A stretch of DNA of 64,000 nucleotides from Flavobacterium franklandianum (GTDB taxonomy: Bacteria > Bacteroidota > Bacteroidia > Flavobacteriales > Flavobacteriaceae): positions 62,001 to 126,000 of the forward strand of contig NZ_VJZR01000008.1 of assembly GCF_007097365.1 (NCBI RefSeq). The letters are read 5' to 3'. How positions within the stretch are numbered: the first letter of the stretch is position 1; each line of letters begins with the position of its first letter. The translations under genes were made by a program, and so were the position numbers. Positions 3,953-51,907 of this stretch are shown piece after piece. Below the pieces are notes generated by a model, which saw only the letters and a program-made list of their open reading frames with translations, ran no database searches and was not told where the DNA came from.

Positions 3953-5914
3953 TTAACTTCTTCTTGGTCTTTTTTCTCTTGGAGCATCACCAAAACTTTC
4001 AGAACGTCTTGCTGGTCTTTCTGAGGAACCGCCTTCACGTCTAGGAGCTTCTGAGGATCTAGGTGCTCTTTCAGAGTAGCCGCTAGTTCTTGGAGCTGCA
4101 GTACTTCTTGGTCCAAAACCACCTTCACGTGGAGCTGAACTTTTGTCGCTTCTAAATCCGCCACCAGAACCTTCACGTCTTGGAGCAAAACTTCCTTCTC
4201 TTCTTGGAGCTGAACTTCTTTCTCCACCTGAACGACTTCCGCCAAAACCACCTGAACTTCTTCCGTTGTGATCGCGTCTTCCGCCACCGTCGTTTTTAGA
4301 AATTTCAACATTGATACGACGACCTTCTAATTGTACGTTGTTCAATATTTCCATTACTTTATCTGTGTGTTCTGGGTCGGTGTTAAAGAAAGAGAAACCT
4401 TCTTTTACATCTACTTTGAAAACGTCATCACGACCTAAGTCTAATGTTTCTTTCAAGTAATCTTTCAATGACATCCAATCGAAATTATCTCTTGAACCAA
4501 TGTTCACGAAATATCTTGTAGCTCCGCCATTGTTGTTTTCTCTTTGAGCTCCGTCTCTATCATCACGCTCACGTCTTTCTGAACCTGAAGCTTGATTTGA
4601 AATGTCCCTGTTTTTCTTGTAGTAAGCAATAAAACGGTTGAATTCTACCGATACCATTTTCTTGATTAGTTCTTCTTTCGACAATCCTTCAAGAACGCTG
4701 TTTATAGCTGGAAGGTAGTTGTCAATTTCGTGATCTACTTCGGTATCCTTAATTTTGTTGGCAAGGTGCAACAATTGGATTTCGCAGATTTCGATTCCAG
4801 AAGGAATTGTTTTTTCTTCGAATTTCTGTTTGATGATTCTTTCGATAGAAGAAATCTTGCGGATTTCACTTTTGGTTACAATAACGATAGAAGTTCCTAA
4901 TTTCCCTGCACGACCGGTACGGCCGGAACGGTGATTGTAAGTTTCTATTTCGTCAGGTAATTGGTAGTTTACTACGTGAGTGATATTGTCAACGTCAATT
5001 CCACGAGCTGCAACGTCAGTAGCAACAAGCATTTGGATTTGGCGACCTCTAAAAGATTTCATTACACCGTCACGTTGTGCTTGAGATAAATCTCCGTGCA
5101 AAGCGGCAGCGCTATACCCATCTTCAATTAATTTTTCGGCAACAGCTTGTGTGTCACGTTTCGTTCTACAAAAAACTACCGAGAAAATGTCTGGATTGGC
5201 ATCGGCCAATCTTTTCAAAGCTTCATAACGGTCACGGGCATTTACCAAGTAAAATTCGTGAGAAACCGTCGCTGAACCTGAGTTTTTCGCTCCTACAGTA
5301 ATTTCTACTGGTTCACGCATAAATTGTTTTGCAATTCGTGCTACTTCTTGCGGCATTGTTGCCGAGAATAACCATGTGTTTTTTTCGTCAGGTGTTGTTG
5401 AAAGGATGTTTACGATATCTTCGTAGAAACCCATGTTCAACATTTCATCTGCTTCGTCAAGAATACAGTAATTAATCTGGGAAATGTTTACCAATCCCCT
5501 GTTAATCATGTCTTGCATTCTACCTGGAGTAGCCACAATAATTTGTGCGCCTCTTTTGATGTCCCTAGCTTGGTCAGTAATACTTGCACCACCGTAAACT
5601 GCAACTACATTGATACCTTTTTCGTATTTGGAGTAGTTTTTAATCTCGTTTGTAATCTGCAAACATAGTTCGCGGGTAGGTGATAAAATCAACGCCTGTG
5701 TATTTCTGTTGTTGGCATCAATTTTTTGGATGACTGGAAAACCGAAAGCTGCCGTTTTCCCTGTCCCTGTCTGAGCCAACGCAACTAAATCAATGTCTTG
5801 TTCCAATAATAGGGGAATCGCTTTCTCCTGTACTTCGGTCGGATTCTCAAATCCTAGATCGATAATCGCACGTTGTAGCGATTCACTCAATCCTAATTGT
5901 TCAAATTTGTTCAT
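3953..5914 (-). CDS. DEAD-box ATP-dependent RNA helicase with DbpA domain and RG-rich tail
   Basis: Unwinds or remodels RNA; family members act in ribosome assembly, RNA decay and cold adaptation. Motifs in order: Q motif (NPTEVQEKAIPLLL), Walker A AQTGTGKTAA, PTRELCLQ, TPGRMQDM, DEAD box ILDEADEMLNMG, SATMPQ, and HRSGRTGRAG. A DbpA-type RNA-binding domain follows (YFVNIGSRDNFDWMSLKDYL). The last 110 residues or so are a low-complexity tail rich in Arg, Gly, Ser and Pro with repeated PRREG words. The start is placed at the ATG at 5914. An upstream in-frame TTG at 5938 falls inside the -7 box CAAAAGTA (5936-5943) and so cannot be translated from that promoter. The general class is certain; a CsdA versus RhlE label is not. 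Confidence 0.93.
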   Translation of the reverse strand: MNKFEQLGLSESLQRAIIDLGFENPTEVQEKAIPLLLEQDIDLVALAQTGTGKTAAFGFPVIQKIDANNRNTQALILSPTRELCLQITNEIKNYSKYEKGINVVAVYGGASITDQARDIKRGAQIIVATPGRMQDMINRGLVNISQINYCILDEADEMLNMGFYEDIVNILSTTPDEKNTWLFSATMPQEVARIAKQFMREPVEITVGAKNSGSATVSHEFYLVNARDRYEALKRLADANPDIFSVVFCRTKRDTQAVAEKLIEDGYSAAALHGDLSQAQRDGVMKSFRGRQIQMLVATDVAARGIDVDNITHVVNYQLPDEIETYNHRSGRTGRAGKLGTSIVIVTKSEIRKISSIERIIKQKFEEKTIPSGIEICEIQLLHLANKIKDTEVDHEIDNYLPAINSVLEGLSKEELIKKMVSVEFNRFIAYYKKNRDISNQASGSERRERDDRDGAQRENNNGGATRYFVNIGSRDNFDWMSLKDYLKETLDLGRDDVFKVDVKEGFSFFNTDPEHTDKVMEILNNVQLEGRRINVEISKNDGGGRRDHNGRSSGGFGGSRSGGERSSAPRREGSFAPRREGSGGGFRSDKSSAPREGGFGPRSTAAPRTSGYSERAPRSSEAPRREGGSSERPARRSESFGDAPREKRPRRS

Positions 5915-44830: not shown

Positions 44831-45283
44831 ATGACAACATTAAAAAAAGGCGACAAAGCTCCCAGTTTTTCAGGAATTGACCAAGACGGCCACGCTCACA
44901 AATTAGCCGATTATAAAGGAAAAAAATTAGTGGTTTTCTTTTATCCAAAAGCAAACACACCAGGTTGTACCGCCGAAGCTTGTGACTTGAGAGACAATTT
45001 CGAACGTTTTCAAGCCAATAATTATGCGCTTCTGGGAGTGAGTGCCGATGCTGCCAAAGCTCAAGCCAAGTTCAAAGAAAAATATGATTTTCCGTTTCCC
45101 TTATTGGCAGACGAAGATAAATCAGTTATTGAAGCTTTTGGAGTTTGGGGTCCCAAAAAGTTTATGGGACGTGAATACGATGGCATCCACAGAACCACCT
45201 TTGTCATTGACGAAAATGGAAACTTGGAAGACGTGATTTTAGATGTAAAAACGAAAGCTCATGCTGCACAGATTTTGAAGTAA
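44831..45283 (+). CDS. bcp: Thioredoxin-dependent thiol peroxidase (BCP/PrxQ type)
   Basis: A 150-residue peroxiredoxin that reduces hydrogen peroxide and organic hydroperoxides, using thioredoxin. Peroxidatic Cys46 and resolving Cys51 are in NTPGCTAEACDLRD, the spacing of BCP/PrxQ. FFYPKANTPGC is the family signature. Cytosolic. The leader has the phrase CTTCTAACCTCTAACTTC in place of a Shine-Dalgarno. A strong hairpin ends the gene at 45302-45338, after which the cassette-like array begins. Confidence 0.95.
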   Translation: MTTLKKGDKAPSFSGIDQDGHAHKLADYKGKKLVVFFYPKANTPGCTAEACDLRDNFERFQANNYALLGVSADAAKAQAKFKEKYDFPFPLLADEDKSVIEAFGVWGPKKFMGREYDGIHRTTFVIDENGNLEDVILDVKTKAHAAQILK

Positions 45284-45301
45284 CACTAGTTCATAGGATA
45301 T

Positions 45302-45338
45302 AAAAACACCAAGAAAATGTATTTTTCTTGGTGTTTTT
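45302..45338 (+). terminator. Terminator of bcp
   Basis: AAAAACACCAAGAAAA, loop TGTA, TTTTTCTTGGTGTTTTT: about 15-16 pairs with a T tail. Confidence 0.9.
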
Positions 45339-45435
45339 GTTGTTTGTTCGTCAGATTGTGAAAAAACCTCTACAATCCTCCCAACAAATATACTAAAATA
45401 CTTGTAAGAAAAATAAAGATTTTGTACATTTATAG

Positions 45436-45714
45436 GGGCAACACATCCAAGGAATATCTCACAATCAACTTTAGCTTAGCAGTCTAGAAGAAACCATCAG
45501 CCAAGACAATCCGGTTCGATTTATCGATGGATTTGTCAACAGTATCGATTTAGAAAAAATAGGATTTACTCCAAGAGTAGTAAAAGCTGAAGGTCGTCCG
45601 AGTTTTGATACCAAAGTTTTTCTAAAAATCTATCTATATGGCTATTTAAACGGCATTTGCAGTTCTCGAAAACTAGAAAAAGAAGCCTTTTTTACCCAAA
45701 TTTCCGTGTTGTAA
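45436..45714 (+). pseudogene. IS1182-like transposase, N-terminal fragment, copy 1
   Basis: Translation in one frame gives QHIQGISHNQL, an in-frame TAG at 45472-45474, then SLEETISQDNPVRFIDGFVN, GFTPRVVKAEGRPSFDTKVF and LKIYLYGYLNGICSSRKLEK before a TAA at 45712. This is the N-terminal (DUF772) region of IS1182-family transposases. The catalytic core is absent. The same stop is present in the other two copies, so the fragment was already dead before the element multiplied. Confidence 0.85.
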
Positions 45715-45967
45715 AATAGGTAATTTACACCGGATAGTGGTTTTTGATCACCGCGGTCCGCCAGCTTGGTATCTTGGCGATAGCCAAAGTTCCAATTTCT
45801 GTAAAAGCTAATTTAAGGGTAAGTTATTTTATGCCCAAAAGTGAAGGAAAACACCTAAAAACCAAGTTGACATTACTCCAAAAAAAAGAGGGCACTAAAT
45901 CCTCTTACTATTCTCTCTCAAAACTTTAGGATAACTCCATAGTGTTGACGGCAGGTACTCCGGTTTC

Positions 45968-46021
45968 GTTCAACACGGGTTTCATTGTTCGTGCAGCGCA
46001 CGCAACGAAACCCTAGCTGTT
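45968..46021. other. attC-like hairpin, copy 1
   Basis: GTTCAAC, then GGGTTTC-A-TTG-TT-CGTGC, loop AGC, GCACG-CAA-C-GAAACCC, then TGTT. The imperfect stem with unpaired bases on both arms is the shape of a folded attC site. Read on the minus strand the right box is GTTGAAC, which fits the integron core GTTRRRY. The opposite edge is only a partial match. Confidence 0.6.
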
Positions 46022-46033
46022 ATCGGACGGTTA
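46019..46033. repeat. Unit 1 terminal inverted repeat, left arm
   Basis: GTTATCGGACGGTTA matches the complement of TAACTGTCCGCTAAC (48065-48079) at 13 of 15 positions. It starts at the exact GTT where similarity among the border elements ends. Confidence 0.7.
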
Positions 46034-46061
46034 TTTTTTTTTTAGTTCTAAATATCAATGA

Positions 46062-46826
46062 TTATCTACTTAATAATGTTTTTAAATATATAGTGAAAAT
46101 TAATGAGACTATTAACACTGAAACTCGAATTACATTTTTTATTATTATGTTTTGAAATTGCAATGAAGGAAAGATTGTGTCAGATGAATACAAAAATTGT
46201 TTTAGTTTTTTGTAATCAGATAAAATTAGAAATAAAAGTCCAAAAGTTAATATAACCGACTGTAACAAAGCTCCCAAATTCATTTTGTAAAATATATTTA
46301 TCAATGTTAAATTAAGCATTAGTGAAAATAGTGTTAGTGAACCTACTAATACGGTTTTTCTATACAGAAGTAAAATTGATCCAAAAATTTGTATACTTGC
46401 GATTATTACACCAAACGTGTCTGAGTAACCAAAGTAAAACCAAGTTAGCCATTCTCCAGATTGCTGATTCATTGGAAGTATTGCAATTTCTGATGGAACT
46501 AAAAACTGAAGGCCAAATATTTTTTTCCATCCAAAACTTATCAAATTAATTGCAATCACAAATCTAACTAACGAATAAAGCAACCCAAATGTCTTATTGC
46601 TATCAATTTTTTGTTTATTTTCAAGTTTTTGCCAAATAATTGGAAATACTAACGATGTTAATAGTATTAATGCTACTAGTGGAAAAACTACTACTGGCGG
46701 AAACCAAATAATATTTCCACCATTACCGATTACTAAAATAAGCGCAGAAATTGTTAAACCAGAAATTAACGTGGTAACAATTTTTCTTGCAAATAAATTC
46801 TTTTTGTCAAAAACTAAATTTGTCAT
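46062..46826 (-). CDS. Polytopic membrane protein, possibly DoxX-like, in cassette unit 1
   Basis: A 254-residue inner-membrane protein with about seven hydrophobic segments and short loops. The region LVRFVIAINLISFGWKKIFG followed by QFLVPSE resembles the first helix of DoxX-type proteins, which have a conserved small residue and Lys at that place, but the match is weak. No catalytic motif seen. It follows the membrane-bound AraC regulator on the same strand after 83 bases, and the two may form an operon. Starts at an ATG. Confidence 0.6.
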   Translation of the reverse strand: MTNLVFDKKNLFARKIVTTLISGLTISALILVIGNGGNIIWFPPVVVFPLVALILLTSLVFPIIWQKLENKQKIDSNKTFGLLYSLVRFVIAINLISFGWKKIFGLQFLVPSEIAILPMNQQSGEWLTWFYFGYSDTFGVIIASIQIFGSILLLYRKTVLVGSLTLFSLMLNLTLINIFYKMNLGALLQSVILTFGLLFLILSDYKKLKQFLYSSDTIFPSLQFQNIIIKNVIRVSVLIVSLIFTIYLKTLLSR

Positions 46827-46909
46827 AAATCTTACATTTTAAATTATTAAAGTGCAAAATTGGAAATTTAAAAATTAGTAATGTTCCAAAGTGTAATTTG
46901 GAACATAAT

Positions 46910-48034
46910 TTATTTAATATTTTGATTATTTAATTTTAAAAAATCCGTTGGCGAAATTCCAGCAATTTTTTTGAACGTCGTATTAAAAGTTGTCTTTGAA
47001 TTAAATCCAGATTGATATGCAATTCCTACAATATTTAAATTTAAGTATTCGTCTGAAAGCAGTAATTTTTTTGCTTCGATGATTCTAAATTTATTTACAT
47101 AATTATTGAAGTTTTGCTTATGTAATTCATTTATTACAAAAGAAATTTCATTTGGCGTTGTATCTAATTTATTTGCTAATTTAACTAAATTCAAATCATT
47201 TTCGAGATAAAATTTTTCGGTTTCCATTAGTATAATCAATTTATTATTCAAAACTGAGGTTTGCTCTTCTGATAACCTTTTTTGTCTATTTGGCTCGTTA
47301 CTAGAAGTTACAATTTCATCCAATTTTTTAATTTCGTTTTCACCGTATTTGTAAACTTTATTTTGCCGCAATGCGAAATAGCCAACAAAAAAAATACTAA
47401 ATAAGTATAGTAATGGTGTGTATGTTTTCAATAATGTTATATCAAAAAATATTAAGTTAAACCATATTACAATGATCAATAAGATTATAAGCAAAAAATA
47501 ATTTAACCACTTAAGATTGATTTTTTCTGTTGATGATTCTACTTTACCAATATTCTCCGTATGTAATCGTAGGCGTAGAAAAGAAAGTGTCCAATAGAGA
47601 ATTGCTTGTATTGGAAGAAGAAGTTGCAGAATTAAAAAAACAATTTTTTCAATTATTGGTTCAAATTCTAAATTTTTTCCAGTTAAAAAGTATGGTATTC
47701 TAAAAATTAAAATAATTAAAAAAGGCAGAAAAGAGTAGAGATGTAAACGATTAAATCTTTGTTCAAGCGAAGTAAAGCAAAAAATTGATATATACAGCAA
47801 AGGTGCAACCAAATATCTACTGATACCAATTAATTCAAAATAATACGGAAAGTGTACGTTAAAATTTTCGTAAACCAACGAAATTTCTAATATTGATAAA
47901 CTTAAAAAAAATATAAATATACTAAGCCATCTATTTGCGTTTTTATTAATGTTTAAAGGATGATTATATAATAGAAAGCTTAAAAAGAAACCGCTACCAG
48001 CCGTTAAACTTGTTAGAATATTTATTTTCTCCAT
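46910..48034 (-). CDS. AraC-family regulator with N-terminal membrane domain, in cassette unit 1
   Basis: A 374-residue protein. Residues 1-225 hold six to seven membrane helices with short loops. After a charged linker, an AraC/XylS DNA-binding domain occupies about 270-370: LVKLANKLDTTPNEISFVIN (first helix-turn-helix) and IVGIAYQSGFNSKTTFNTTF with GISPTDFLK (second, with the family signature). It is therefore a membrane-anchored transcription factor that probably senses a signal in or across the inner membrane. The likely target is the adjacent membrane protein gene. Starts at an ATG about 45 bases inside the unit edge. Confidence 0.85.
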   Translation of the reverse strand: MEKINILTSLTAGSGFFLSFLLYNHPLNINKNANRWLSIFIFFLSLSILEISLVYENFNVHFPYYFELIGISRYLVAPLLYISIFCFTSLEQRFNRLHLYSFLPFLIILIFRIPYFLTGKNLEFEPIIEKIVFLILQLLLPIQAILYWTLSFLRLRLHTENIGKVESSTEKINLKWLNYFLLIILLIIVIWFNLIFFDITLLKTYTPLLYLFSIFFVGYFALRQNKVYKYGENEIKKLDEIVTSSNEPNRQKRLSEEQTSVLNNKLIILMETEKFYLENDLNLVKLANKLDTTPNEISFVINELHKQNFNNYVNKFRIIEAKKLLLSDEYLNLNIVGIAYQSGFNSKTTFNTTFKKIAGISPTDFLKLNNQNIK

Positions 48035-48064
48035 TTATGATATTTTATGTTCGGAATATGTGAT

Positions 48065-48079
48065 TAACTGTCCGCTAAC
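48065..48079. repeat. Unit 1 terminal inverted repeat, right arm
   Basis: TAACTGTCCGCTAAC, complementary at 13 of 15 positions to the left arm at 46019-46033. It ends at the AAC/CG where the next border element begins. Confidence 0.7.
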
Positions 48080-48165
48080 GTCAGATTGTGAAAAAACCTC
48101 TACAATCCTCCCAACAAATATACTAAAATACTTGTAAGAAAAATAAAGATTTTGTACATTTATAG

Positions 48166-48444
48166 GGGCAACACATCCAAGGAATATCTCACAATCAACT
48201 TTAGCTTAGCAGTCTAGAAGAAACCATCAGCCAAGACAATCCGGTTCGATTTATCGATGGATTTGTCAACAGTATCGATTTAGAAAAAATAGGATTTACT
48301 CCAAGAGTAGTAAAAGCTGAAGGTCGTCCGAGTTTTGATACCAAAGTTTTTCTAAAAATCTATCTATATGGCTATTTAAACGGCATTTGCAGTTCTCGAA
48401 AACTAGAAAAAGAAGCCTTTTTTACCCAAATTCCCGTGTTGTAA
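48166..48444 (+). pseudogene. IS1182-like transposase, N-terminal fragment, copy 2
   Basis: Same translation, same internal TAG and same final TAA as copy 1, with one change near the end (TQIPVL for TQISVL). No catalytic region. Confidence 0.85.
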
Positions 48445-48698
48445 AATAGGTAATTTACACCGGATAGTGGTTTTTGATCACCGCGGTCCGCGAGCTTGGT
48501 ATCTTGGCGATAGCCTAAGTTCCAATTTCTGTAAAAGCTAATTTAAGGGTAAGTTATTTTATGCCCAAAAGTGAAGGAAAACACCTAAAAACCAAGTTGA
48601 CATTACTCCAAAAAAAAAGAGGACACTAAATCCTCTTACTATTCTCTCTCAAAACTTTAGGATAACTCCATAGTGTTGACGGCAGGCACTCCGGTTCC

Positions 48699-48752
48699 GT
48701 TCAACCAGAGTTTCATTGTTCGTGCTGCGCAAGCGACGAAACTCAAACTGTT
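48699..48752. other. attC-like hairpin, copy 2
   Basis: GTTCAACCAGAGTTTC pairs with GAAACTC-AAA-CTGTT. GAG/CTC here replaces GGG/CCC of copy 1, a compensated change. Confidence 0.6.
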
Positions 48753-48767
48753 GTACGCTGCTTTTTC
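48750..48767. repeat. Unit 2 terminal inverted repeat, left arm
   Basis: GTTGTACGCTGCTTT matches the complement of AAAGTAGCATACAAC (50022-50036) at 13 of 15 positions. It starts in the GTT at the element edge and differs from the unit 1 repeat. Confidence 0.7.
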
Positions 48768-48768
48768 T

Positions 48769-49983
48769 CTATTTGTTCGATGTGAATTTGTGTAAAACAT
48801 ATTCTGACTGGTCTGGCGAACCATTTGTTAGCTGCACGGTCGGATTTTTTCCTAAAGTATAAATAACAGAGCAAAAAGTGAACAGGTCTTTGTCACTTTG
48901 ATAAGCGATACAAACAGGATATTTTTCACTGTCTTTGGAACTCAATGTTTCTTTTATCGTGTTGTCTGAAAAATCTTTATTGCTGATGTCAAGCCTATTT
49001 TTTATTGCTGTAAAACGAGTAACACTACCATAGCCATCAGTTTCTCCGGATAATATTTTTCTATTAAATTCTTTATACCAAGGCTTTATATCATCATTAC
49101 TCATGGTGTGATTGGTATGATAAACAACCGACGGATTATTTGCAAGGGGTATAAAACGAACCACTTTATTTGCGGAAGCTTCAAAGTCATACACATTGTC
49201 GCCAGCGCCAATGATATAATTTTGTCCAGAGGCATGCTTCACTTTTTGTAAAAAATCTAGGGCACTTTTCTTGTCCTTTTTTAATAGTATTCCTCTAACC
49301 ACGCAGGCAACTGGTAAACCGTCTGTACTTGCATTCAATTCCATTAGCGTATTAACAGTCACTCCAATTCCATTTGAATTCATCCCATTCATACCCACAC
49401 AGCCTGCTGAGCTTAAGACATACTGCTCTGGCTCATTTTTGTAGGCTTTAATGTGCAGTAAAACCTGGCTTCCATTCATAAAAGACTCGGCATCTAAATT
49501 TTGAGCAATGTAAGTGGGGTTTGAACCCTTAGCGGCAACACCTAAGCCACTGCAATGGTTTGCTTCCTTGTTTTCGATTTTATCAAGATAAACCCAAAAT
49601 TCGTCGGCCATTTGAAAGCAATAAACATCTTTAAAAGTTTGACCAGAACTTTCAGCAATTCCCTTTATTTCATCATATATTTCTGGTGTCCATTTTTTGA
49701 TAGCGGGTTCAAAATTGGTACTATGGAAAAAATTGTCAATTAGGGTGTCGGCATTTTGCTTTGTGTTAGTTTCAATGTCTTTTTTCCACTTTTTGAATAG
49801 CTCAGCAATTTCAGTTTTCATTAATTTGCCGTGTTGTAAGCCTCGTTGATAACCGTTTCCTTGTAATTCAATAACAGGTACATTTTTGGGAGTGCCGATT
49901 TTGACTGCGGGTTGTTGTGAATATGAATTACACCATACTGTTAGCAGGAAAGCGGCAAAAAAATATCTTTTTAAATGTTTCAT
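48769..49983 (-). CDS. C45-type autoproteolytic acyltransferase/hydrolase, in cassette unit 2
   Basis: A 404-residue exported Ntn hydrolase of the acyl-CoA:6-aminopenicillanate acyltransferase type. Signal peptide at 1-22 (YFFAAFLLTVWCNSYSQ). RGLQHGKLMKTEI and the probable self-cleavage site NHCSGLGV with Cys144 as nucleophile are in the expected order, followed by AQNLDAESF and SSAGCVGMNGMNSNGIGV. Known relatives acylate or deacylate amines such as 6-APA or ceramide-like amides; the substrate here is unknown. It is the only gene of unit 2, and its stop lies 16 bases from the border element. Confidence 0.82.
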   Translation of the reverse strand: MKHLKRYFFAAFLLTVWCNSYSQQPAVKIGTPKNVPVIELQGNGYQRGLQHGKLMKTEIAELFKKWKKDIETNTKQNADTLIDNFFHSTNFEPAIKKWTPEIYDEIKGIAESSGQTFKDVYCFQMADEFWVYLDKIENKEANHCSGLGVAAKGSNPTYIAQNLDAESFMNGSQVLLHIKAYKNEPEQYVLSSAGCVGMNGMNSNGIGVTVNTLMELNASTDGLPVACVVRGILLKKDKKSALDFLQKVKHASGQNYIIGAGDNVYDFEASANKVVRFIPLANNPSVVYHTNHTMSNDDIKPWYKEFNRKILSGETDGYGSVTRFTAIKNRLDISNKDFSDNTIKETLSSKDSEKYPVCIAYQSDKDLFTFCSVIYTLGKNPTVQLTNGSPDQSEYVLHKFTSNK

Positions 49984-50019
49984 AATAGTTTTTATTTTAT
50001 TTAAAGTTTAAGGTCGTTC

Positions 50020-50036
50020 GTAAAGTAGCATACAAC
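50020..50036. repeat. Unit 2 terminal inverted repeat, right arm
   Basis: GTAAAGTAGCATACAAC, complementary to the left arm at 48750. It ends at the AAC/CG edge of border element 3. Confidence 0.7.
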
Positions 50037-50122
50037 GTCAGATTGTGAAAAAATTTCTACAATCCTTACAACAAATATACTAAAATACTTGTAAGAAAAA
50101 TAAAGATTTTGTGTATTTAGTG

Positions 50123-50401
50123 ATGCAACACATCCAAGGAATATCTCGCAATCAACTTTAGCTTAGCAGTCTAGAAGACACCATCAGCCAGGACAATCCG
50201 GTTCGATTTATCGATGCATTTGTTAACAGTATAGATTTAAAAAAAACAGGATTTACTCCAAGAGTAGTAAAAGCTGAAGGTCGTCTGAGTATTTATACCA
50301 AAGTTTTTCTAAAAATCTATCTATATGACTATTTAAAGGGCATTCGCAGTTCTCGAAGAATAGAAAAAGAAGCCTTTCTTACCCAAATGCACGTGTTATA
50401 A
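50123..50401 (+). pseudogene. IS1182-like transposase, N-terminal fragment, copy 3
   Basis: QGISRNQL, the same TAG, then SLEDTISQDNPVRFIDAFVN and LKIYLYDYLKGIRSSRRIEK, ending at TAA 50399-50401. The wording here (SRNQL, FIDAFVN, GIRSSR) is nearer to active IS1182 transposases, so copy 3 is probably closest to the ancestor. Confidence 0.82.
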
Positions 50402-50654
50402 AACAGGTAATTTGCACCGGATAGCGGTTTTTGATCAGCGCGGTTCGCCAGCTTGGTATCTTGGCGATAGCCAAAGTTCCAATTTCTGTAAAAGCTAATT
50501 TAAGGGTAAGTTATTTTATGCCCAAAAGTGAAAGAAAACACTACAAAACGACTTTGGAATCACTCCAAAAAAAAAGAGGTTCGCTTACCTCTTGTATCTC
50601 TCTCTTAAATCTTTACGATAAGTGCATAGTGTTGACGGCAGGTACTCCGGTTCC

Positions 50655-50708
50655 GTTCAACAGGAGTTTCATTGTTCGTGCTGCGCACGCAACGAATCTC
50701 CAGCTGTT
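50655..50708. other. attC-like hairpin, copy 3
   Basis: GTTCAACAGGAGTTTC pairs with GAATCTCCAGCTGTTG: GGAG/CTCC replaces the GGG/CCC and GAG/CTC pairs of copies 1 and 2, and CAACAG pairs with CTGTTG. Confidence 0.6.
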
Positions 50709-50718
50709 GGCGGCTGTT

Positions 50719-51098
50719 TTATTTTATTTTAATAAGTTTTGCACCATAAATAGTCATCGCATCTTCATATTTTTCATATACTTTTCTCGTGCGAAAATAA
50801 ATTGTATCAAAAAGTTTATAAGTTTCTCCGTCCATTTCCACTTCTAATTCCAAACCATTATCTTTTATTATATATAGTTTACCGAATTTTAGTTTTGCTC
50901 TTCTATTTTGTCTTTTCTCTTTGGCCCATTACTAAGTTTTTTTTTATATAACTTGTCTTTTATTTTAATTACGCAATTTTCTGAAGTATATTGAGCTTCA
51001 TATTCCATTCTGTATTTGCCTTCAAGTTTTATCTCTTGAGGTTTCTTCTGGGCGTTTACAAATGTTGAAAACAGTAATATAAAAAGCAGATGTTTCAT
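50719..51098 (-). pseudogene. Small exported protein gene with a frameshift, in cassette unit 3
   Basis: The first frame starts at an ATG at 51098 (KHLLFILLFSTFVNAQ, a signal peptide), continues with QEIKLEGKYRMEYEAQYTSE, and stops at 50889 after 69 codons. A second minus-strand frame picks up at about 50930 (WAKEKRQNRRAKLKFGKLYI; then VEMDGETYKLFDTIYFRTRK) and ends with a TAA at 50719. Joined with a one-base correction near 50930 they form one beta-rich protein of about 125 residues. Either a real frameshift or a sequencing error. Family unknown. It fills the third unit right up to the border element. Confidence 0.6.
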
Positions 51099-51355
51099 TT
51101 TTATAGGGGTTTTAAAATTGCTGGTAACTTATATATATGTATGACAAAACCATACAAAGCCACCAAATTTTGGTAGATATGTATGACCTGCATCATATTT
51201 ATTTTTCATATCAAATATATAAATAATAATTTTATTACAAATCATCAAATGGACTTTTGATGTAGAATTTATTTACGGCAAAATTGCGGTGTTTGTTTTG
51301 TTTTTTCACCGCAAAGGAGCAAGATGTTTTTTTGCGTAAGCTTGCCCAAAAAAAA

Positions 51356-51907
51356 CTACCGCTTATCCTGAATAATTTCGGCCAATAATTTCTTGGCGCG
51401 AAGTAGTTTTATTTTGACGTTGCTTAGGGGTTCGTCAATTTTGTTAGCAATTTCCTGATAACTCATTTCCTGAAAATAACGCAGCTGTATTACTTCCTGA
51501 TAATGTGGTTTGAGTTCTTTGATGAATTGCAGTAACTGCGAAAGATTTTGCTCGGTAATCAATTCATCTTCCGCCGATGGAGTAGTGTCGGCAATGTTGT
51601 AAGCTTGCTGGTCTTCGTCATCGGTGATTTCGATAAAAAGACTCGTTTTCTTTTTGCGTAATAAATCAATGTGGACATTTTTGGCAATAGCAATCAGCCA
51701 AGTATTGAACTGAAATTCAGGATTGTAAAGCGCAATTTTATCAAAAGCTTTAGAGAAAGTTTCAATGGTAATATCTTCGGCGTTGGTTTCGTTTTCGGTG
51801 CGTTTGAGCATAAAACCATAGACCTCATTCCAGTAATAATCCAATAGAAAAGTGAAGGCTACTTGATCGCCCTTTTTCGCTTTTTCTATCTGTAGATTTA
51901 TTTCCAA
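51356..51907 (-). CDS. ECF-type sigma factor following a glycosyltransferase gene
   Basis: A 183-residue sigma-70 family factor: region 2 at about 20-90 (NAEDITIETFSKAFDKIALY; FNTWLIAIAKNVHIDLLRKK) and region 4 at about 125-180 (LKPHYQEVIQLRYFQEMSYQ; EIANKIDEPLSNVKIKLLRA). It begins with TTG at 51907, inside the last codons of the upstream GT2 gene, a 10-base overlap that implies translational coupling. No anti-sigma gene follows. The overlap suggests a role tied to envelope glycan synthesis. Confidence 0.9.
   Translation of the reverse strand: MEINLQIEKAKKGDQVAFTFLLDYYWNEVYGFMLKRTENETNAEDITIETFSKAFDKIALYNPEFQFNTWLIAIAKNVHIDLLRKKKTSLFIEITDDEDQQAYNIADTTPSAEDELITEQNLSQLLQFIKELKPHYQEVIQLRYFQEMSYQEIANKIDEPLSNVKIKLLRAKKLLAEIIQDKR

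Follow-up and report, generated by a model that had tools for sequence, protein, structure and literature searches.

What kind of element places three near-identical sequences of about 673 bp between unrelated genes that are all read from the same strand? The question is raised by a stretch of 64,000 nucleotides from Flavobacterium franklandianum (contig NZ_VJZR01000008.1, positions 62,001 to 126,000 of the forward strand; hereafter the window, in whose coordinates positions are given unless a locus or contig is named). Judged from sequence, the window very probably holds an integrase-deleted copy of an integron-like system that is independent of the integron integrase IntI, and that would consist of a different tyrosine recombinase (denoted REC), an attI-like insertion site and cassettes separated by hairpin sites. 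The features of the array are as follows.

45349 to 46021, minus strand: border element E1, the site after the last cassette in gene orientation, with a decayed DDE transposase N-terminus and a terminal 15-pair hairpin
46019 to 48079, minus strand: cassette unit 1 (GTT to AAC), whose two ends are complementary to each other at 10 of 12 free positions
46062 to 46826, minus strand: predicted gene of 254 amino acids (aa) in unit 1, without Pfam match at 1e-3
46910 to 48034, minus strand: predicted AraC-type regulator (HTH_18) of 374 aa in unit 1
48079 to 48752, minus strand: border element E2
48750 to 50036, minus strand: cassette unit 2 (GTT to AAC), likewise with 10 of 12 free positions complementary between its two ends
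48769 to 49983, minus strand: predicted acyltransferase-like protein (Pfam AAT) of 404 aa in unit 2
50036 to 50708, minus strand: border element E3
50706 to 51128, minus strand: cassette unit 3, the first of the array in gene orientation, with weak end complementarity (7 of 12)
50889 to 51098, minus strand: predicted small protein of 69 aa in unit 3, without Pfam match at 1e-3
51128 to 51187, minus strand: attI-like site ..TCATACATATATATAA/GTT, which, upstream stretch included, shares 84 of 111 aligned columns with the site beside REC in locus L072
51212 to 51219, minus strand: promoter-like box TATATTTG (TAnnTTTG), in the same relative position as beside intact REC genes
51235 to 51261, minus strand: scar of a REC gene, comprising its final 8 codons and the stop (IKSPFDDL-stop)

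The original prediction had described the three elements, and their coordinates proved exact; the other two are 98% and 90% identical to E1 (positions 1–673). Similarity ends at ..CTG/TT on one side and at ..AA/CGTCAG on the other (the slash marks the limit), in agreement with the GTT and AAC/CG edges that had been proposed. The long open reading frames (ORFs) of the units are mutually unrelated and all lie on the minus strand, as had been stated, and E1 indeed begins beside the bcp terminator, 66 bp past the last base of bcp and adjoining its terminator-like inverted repeat. Of the proposed extent (45349–51098) the left limit stands, whereas on the right the feature continues to 51261; the attI-like site, the promoter-like box and the recombinase scar at 51128–51261 had been missed, as had the decayed insertion sequence inside the border elements. 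Copies or parts of the border element were also found on two other contigs of the same genome, C23 and C38, and in 12 of 59 relatives (own genome excluded), every one of the same genus.

In the circular form of an integron cassette the GTT start pairs with the AAC end. Units 1 and 2 of the window behave likewise: the two ends of each are complementary at 10 of 12 free positions (P 3.8e-5 each, for equal base frequencies), whereas cross pairings between the two units score only 4 and 3. Over 19 units from several genomes, with unit limits set by us from aligned element edges, 167 of 285 own-end positions matched, compared to a mean of 103 (standard deviation 7.8) and a maximum of 141 in 20,000 shuffled pairings. 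The integron box sequences were taken from PMC2727003. When the complement of a unit's own start was sought downstream, it recovered the unit end even before sites that are not of the window type. The same search exposed short hairpin sites of about 80–125 bp that bound the same kind of unit and contain no insertion sequence. In these features, namely GTT and AAC at the cassette borders, hairpin sites and complementary own ends, the arrays agree with IntI integrons.

The composition of the border elements bears on a simpler explanation, in which they are scattered non-autonomous copies of an insertion sequence between ordinary genes and no cassette system exists. In its favour, positions 73–342 of each element match residues 2–91 of an intact DDE transposase (69%), and the left end is the terminal repeat of that insertion sequence, GTCAG.CTGTGAAA. 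The transposase of the intact relative carries DUF772 and DDE_Tnp_1_6, and we take the family to be IS1182-like. The window copies resemble such elements in the transposase remnant and the terminal repeat; instead of an intact transposase between two terminal inverted repeats they keep one repeat and residues 2–91, and the remnant is fused to a separate hairpin. This right end is a covarying 15-pair hairpin rather than a terminal repeat: 7 of its pairs vary on both sides across 20 distinct sequences, the alignment covering 21 of 38 available right ends. The explanation was rejected because the complementarity belongs to the unit ends and not to the element ends. The short hairpin sites bounding the same kind of unit, and the attI-like site and REC scar at the array start, further speak against it, and we regard it as very improbable.

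Full or partial copies of this type of DDE insertion sequence lie directly after the AAC of a hairpin site in L053 (2348–4061) and L056 (7024–8748), with a short relative in L041 (L numbers denote loci). On C23 (L038) of the same genome the insertion sequence follows AAC at 4240–5293 and is itself followed by a site that matches the hairpin model described below (5290–5409). This repeated position exactly after AAC suggests that the insertion sequence targets hairpin sites. Together with the separate right-end hairpin, the sister insertions make the border elements of the window best read as altered sites, putatively enlarged by a decayed insertion sequence. One border element on C23 contains two ORF pieces (L038:438–1060) that, judged by a motif, may belong to a Y1 (REP-associated) transposase. 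The corresponding mechanism, of the REP-associated tyrosine transposase (RAYT) or IS200-like type, was considered and set aside, as it does not predict complementary unit ends; no family search was aimed at this ORF.

The hairpin sites of array loci are about 120 nt long, covary and separate cassettes of the same strand. In gene orientation AAC is followed by one unpaired base, a 13-nt arm and an A; then come a variable loop, the second arm and some five unpaired bases before GTT. From 72 sites, 53 were kept that were distinct, 115–131 nt long, began with AACA after the first base, ended in GTT plus one and had a folding energy of at most -28. The A after AAC in all 53 is a product of this filter; no such selection applies to position 10 (T) and position 18 (A), each likewise uniform in 53 of 53. 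The covariance model (R1) was built from 38 of these sites with a structure hand-drawn from single folds; 16 of its 18 pairs are changed on both sides, and 89.3% of its cells are paired compared to 59.7% in shuffled and 33–46% in slid controls. Compared to attC, for which PMC2727003 gives a spacer of about 5 nt per arm and extrahelical bases on one arm, the unpaired spacer measures 1 nt instead of about 5, and a bulge near the 11th pair occurs in some sites only.

At an expectation value (E) of 0.01 the model found 355 matches in 396 kb of array regions, which were chosen by us and retain overlaps of about 100 bp. The genome of F. franklandianum itself has 22 matches at E 0.1, of which 20 persist at 1e-5. 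Matches at E 1e-3, of which no more than 14 were scored in any one genome, occur in 221 of 249 genomes of the genus. In the family, 191 of 299 genomes and 160 of the 236 sampled genera have matches at 1e-6, and in the phylum 117 of 296 genomes and 68 of the 139 sampled genera, where the counts are of model matches and not of verified arrays.

Which enzyme would act on these sites? The scar at the array start, IKSPFDDL-stop, is the C-terminus of many REC relatives. An intact REC gene is present on contig C15 of the same genome, and its product ends in INPFDM; the gene lost from the window was therefore probably a REC of another subgroup, as judged from the two termini. The original prediction had proposed a gene-capture array, related to integrons or independent, with its integrase located elsewhere. 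This view is supported, in the form of a system independent of IntI with a recombinase gene on C15.

REC genes were found beside array starts. In 24 of 28 loci (22 of 26 distinct ones; the rule was set after viewing the loci and has no chance control), the REC stop is followed at a distance of 92–153 bp by a TATA-containing stretch that precedes GTT and A or G. The promoter-like box TAnnTTTG accompanies the REC stop in 25 of 30 rows (22 of 27 distinct genes, again with no chance control). With strict thresholds, a cassette begins at the attI-like site in 10 of 19 REC regions, nine times beyond the REC 3′ end and once, in L084, beyond the 5′ end. Besides these ten, L069, L078 and L083 have cassettes further on from REC. 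TATATA sequences at array starts had been regarded as a third site type until REC was found beside them, and were then re-read as attI-like. The C15 locus (L040) displays the complete order: the own REC and an attI-like site come first, then a cassette with the two McrBC genes and its hairpin site, and finally another cassette whose hairpin site lies close to the end of the contig. Upstream of REC, this locus has genes in common with at least six other REC loci.

At 1e-40, 149 of the 249 genomes examined in the genus have a REC relative, and at least 22 rows among the matches listed start less than 1 kb from the first base of their contig. Genomes with REC are richer in hairpin sites (median at least 14 versus 4), and at least ten sites are found in 101 of 149 genomes with REC versus 22 of 100 without it, both comparisons being uncorrected for ancestry. 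Outside the genus, chained cassettes were detected in 4 of 80 named REC-relative loci and in none of 3 × 80 shuffled loci, which preserve single-base content only. The chains of a Sphingobacteriales metagenome-assembled genome (MAG), a Bacteroidetes MAG and Flavobacteriaceae S0862 lie within about 220 bp of the REC match, while that of Seonamhaeicola is about 4 kb away.

REC is a tyrosine recombinase of about 345 aa with an N-terminal addition of about 70 residues. It is one of four phage-integrase-family genes in its genome at E 1e-8, the others being two of Xer size and one of 409 aa. The residues R, H, R, H and Y, to which we assign the catalytic roles presumed from other tyrosine recombinases, are invariant across 26 REC relatives. 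Against the archaeal XerA/Xer family NF040815 REC scores 228.6 bits and passes the cut-off of 220, and against the IntI family TIGR02249 it scores 202.5 bits, below the cut-off of 265, in two stretches from which the insertion region is missing. The alignment with the integron integrase 2a3v is likewise in two pieces, with about 61 residues of 2a3v opposite 18 of REC at the extra domain of IntI (REC query 254–273 versus 2a3v chain 185–247). REC thus lacks the additional domain by which IntI is defined in PMC2426708 and PMC8138268. In a tree of 110 proteins (117 without internal stops, less five rows that were copies or the C32 protein and two shorter than 230 aa), ten IntI rows and five others are grouped with 100/100 support and no REC row falls inside. 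The REC rows are spread over several groups from Bacteroidota, the tree not settling how these branch relative to IntI, and the archaeal rows branch apart from them. The predicted REC structure (predicted local distance difference test, pLDDT, 79.5; predicted template modelling score, pTM, 0.52; poor at residues 320–334) is matched best in the PDB by XerA and IntI, with 5hxy at the top by both sequence and fold. Archaeal XerA/Xer proteins serve chromosome dimer resolution and are not known to have cassette arrays.

The N-terminal addition (residues 1–70, L040:8164–8373) is predicted to fold as beta-beta-alpha-beta-beta-alpha with conserved tryptophans; it matched no Pfam family at its cut-off in a search with E up to 10. 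It might bind folded DNA. The closest named relative of REC is found in Flavobacterium aciduliphilum (81%). A second REC-like group was observed in congeners (among them genomes G165, G136, G090 and G178) as open frames of about 590–618 aa, some of them near contig starts. Near-full-length REC relatives also occur in L113, L124 and L128, on MAG contigs labelled Spirochaetota, Undinarchaeales and Firmicutes, which may reflect misbinning or transfer.

A recombinase search had been suggested by the original prediction, and its two halves diverged: no IntI exceeded the cut-off in the genome of F. franklandianum, while another tyrosine recombinase, the C15 REC, was found. At 1e-40 IntI is absent from all 249 genomes of the genus, this one included. 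The search is able to find IntI, since in the broader phylum sample, where IntI is common, 84 of 296 genomes score above the cut-off of this profile; 85 of the 86 IntI-bearing genomes of the phylum sample fall outside this class. These results concern the possibility that the window is an ordinary IntI integron minus its integrase, i.e. a cluster of attC sites lacking an integron integrase (CALIN), mobilised by IntI from elsewhere. The two agree in the anatomy of their cassettes, in having hairpin sites and in carrying their genes on one strand, the window has sites and cassettes and no integrase gene, and CALINs are described as common in PMC9024848. However, besides the missing IntI, a different recombinase is found at attI, and the hairpin model and IntI seldom occur together (23 of 296 phylum genomes have both, 94 the model only and 63 IntI only). 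Moreover, CALINs are defined by the attC sites of IntI integrons, of which the standard attC covariance model has to recognise two or more with no IntI nearby, whereas here REC-bearing arrays exist elsewhere. We therefore consider a CALIN highly unlikely.

Detection of cassettes in 11 genomes gave 256 (median 590 bp, overlapping candidates being settled by score), with up to about 40 in one 40-kb stretch. Within genomes 45 similar pairs were found, and between genomes 17 (26 cassettes), none of which shares a neighbour. From the tops of these lists 14 pairs were inspected, 11 within and three between genomes. In 10 of the 11 within-genome pairs the match extends 2–6 bases beyond the predicted crossover base, the G of the next GTT, and in the remaining pair 20 bases beyond it. 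The matches start at most 29 bases from the unit GTT in seven pairs and run back through the preceding hairpin in four. In one case a unit at attI is repeated 12 kb away with 100% identity over 623 bp, the match beginning at GTT and stopping 6 bases beyond the G of the GTT that follows.

An array could also arise by duplication and homologous recombination between repeats, with no site-specific recombination. The 98% identity of E1 and E2 would allow homologous exchange; the units between the repeats, however, are unrelated and not copies of one duplicated segment, 10 of the 11 within-genome matches inspected end 2–6 bases beyond the predicted crossover base, and loci differ in the opening bases of their first cassette. 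This origin is extremely improbable. The original prediction had also named, as outcomes that would tell against it, a lack of further element copies and the same arrangement in all relatives. Further copies exist, as described, and none of the ten congeners examined has an array beside bcp, where other genes follow instead; the hairpin model has no match at E 0.01 in the 190 kb around bcp in these genomes. The window array thus marks a rearrangement or an insertion that those genomes do not have. In nine of the ten, bcp is followed by a gene of about 486 aa (directly in six, past one other ORF in three), which is missing there in the window, and this places a synteny break at the array (45283–51356). 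The sigma-factor side was not found in the ten congener bcp regions, so that the pre-insertion junction was not recovered.

Taken together, the data suggest the following mechanism for the IntI-independent system. In its intact form, which the sequences of many loci display, REC is followed by the promoter-like box and the attI-like site ..ATATACTA/GTT, usually about 100 bp past the REC stop. From there cassettes of the form GTT-gene-AAC run away from REC, each followed by a hairpin site of about 120 nt that ends at the next GTT. REC is predicted to recombine the folded hairpin site with attI or with another site at AA/C and G/TT, whereby cassettes would be excised and re-inserted near the promoter. 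In the window, an insertion sequence may have entered a site just after AAC and decayed, giving rise to the border element, and the site altered in this manner would later have spread between cassettes.

Several observations weigh against this assignment. The case is one of sequence comparison, in which recombination itself is predicted. In the window the hairpin model finds nothing above noise (best E 0.16), and the border elements are accordingly not canonical sites. The ends of unit 3 match weakly (7 of 12, P 0.014), and its left end also scores 7 against the right end of unit 2. The link between REC and the arrays depends on position and on a co-occurrence test that ignores ancestry. Of the 100 genomes without REC at 1e-40, 22 nevertheless have at least ten sites, and five of the 149 with REC have none; in the site-rich genomes without REC another recombinase may act, or the arrays may be remnants. 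Of the 80 named loci, many of which encode distant Xer-like proteins, 4 are chained, and no cassette chain was found at the closest relative, that of F. aciduliphilum. In L084 (G022) the arrangement is reversed: the cassettes lie beyond the 5′ end of REC, here 41% identical, and point away from it. Finally, in all three between-genome pairs inspected the match stops near the cassette AAC, and similar cassettes carry different hairpins between genomes (98% identity of the body versus 78% of the site in one pair, 93% versus 71% in another).

In class 1 integrons the hairpin stays with its cassette, unlike in these between-species pairs. In every one of the 17 between-genome pairs, one or both hairpins resemble another site of the partner genome more closely. 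A bolder reading, which is conceivable but doubtful, is an ancient IntI-independent integron lineage across Bacteroidota that recombines at either hairpin end, so that bodies and hairpins are exchanged separately. Such exchange would explain why species retain hairpin types of their own despite cassette change, and why near-identical border elements stand between unrelated genes in the window.

The IntI-independent system proposed here shares with IntI integrons a tyrosine recombinase gene beside the insertion site, same-strand cassettes bounded at AA/C and G/TT, hairpins with an unpaired spacer, a promoter-like box before the first cassette, a toxin-antitoxin cassette and long cassette arrays. 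It differs in the recombinase (no extra domain, a position outside the IntI group of the tree and the N-terminal addition), in the shorter spacer and in hairpins that are not tied to cassettes between species. The orientation differs as well from the class 1 layout, as the REC 3′ end faces attI in most loci (L084 excepted). Integron surveys define integrons by IntI, whereas the arrays described here, with tens of cassettes, go with another recombinase and are found in a genus common in the environment. Bacteroidetes, according to PMC9024848, had earlier given only integrases without cassettes, and then one complete integron, in Salinibacter. No description of such Flavobacterium arrays was found in the open-access literature at the level of titles and abstract beginnings, a scope outside which most subscription papers and bioRxiv preprints lie, and a prior description is possible.

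If REC is active, the arrays would provide a second test case for the origin of single-stranded hairpin recombination from Xer-like enzymes, and would hold many mobile genes that are still unmined, among them those of defence (McrBC) cassettes and of toxin-antitoxin cassettes. The McrBC defence cassette, the first after the own REC (G000:C15:17198–20380), is the one nearest to the promoter-like box. A ParD/ParE toxin-antitoxin cassette lies in the C23 array (L038:3597–4141), and a ParE gene was observed beside a hairpin site in L047.

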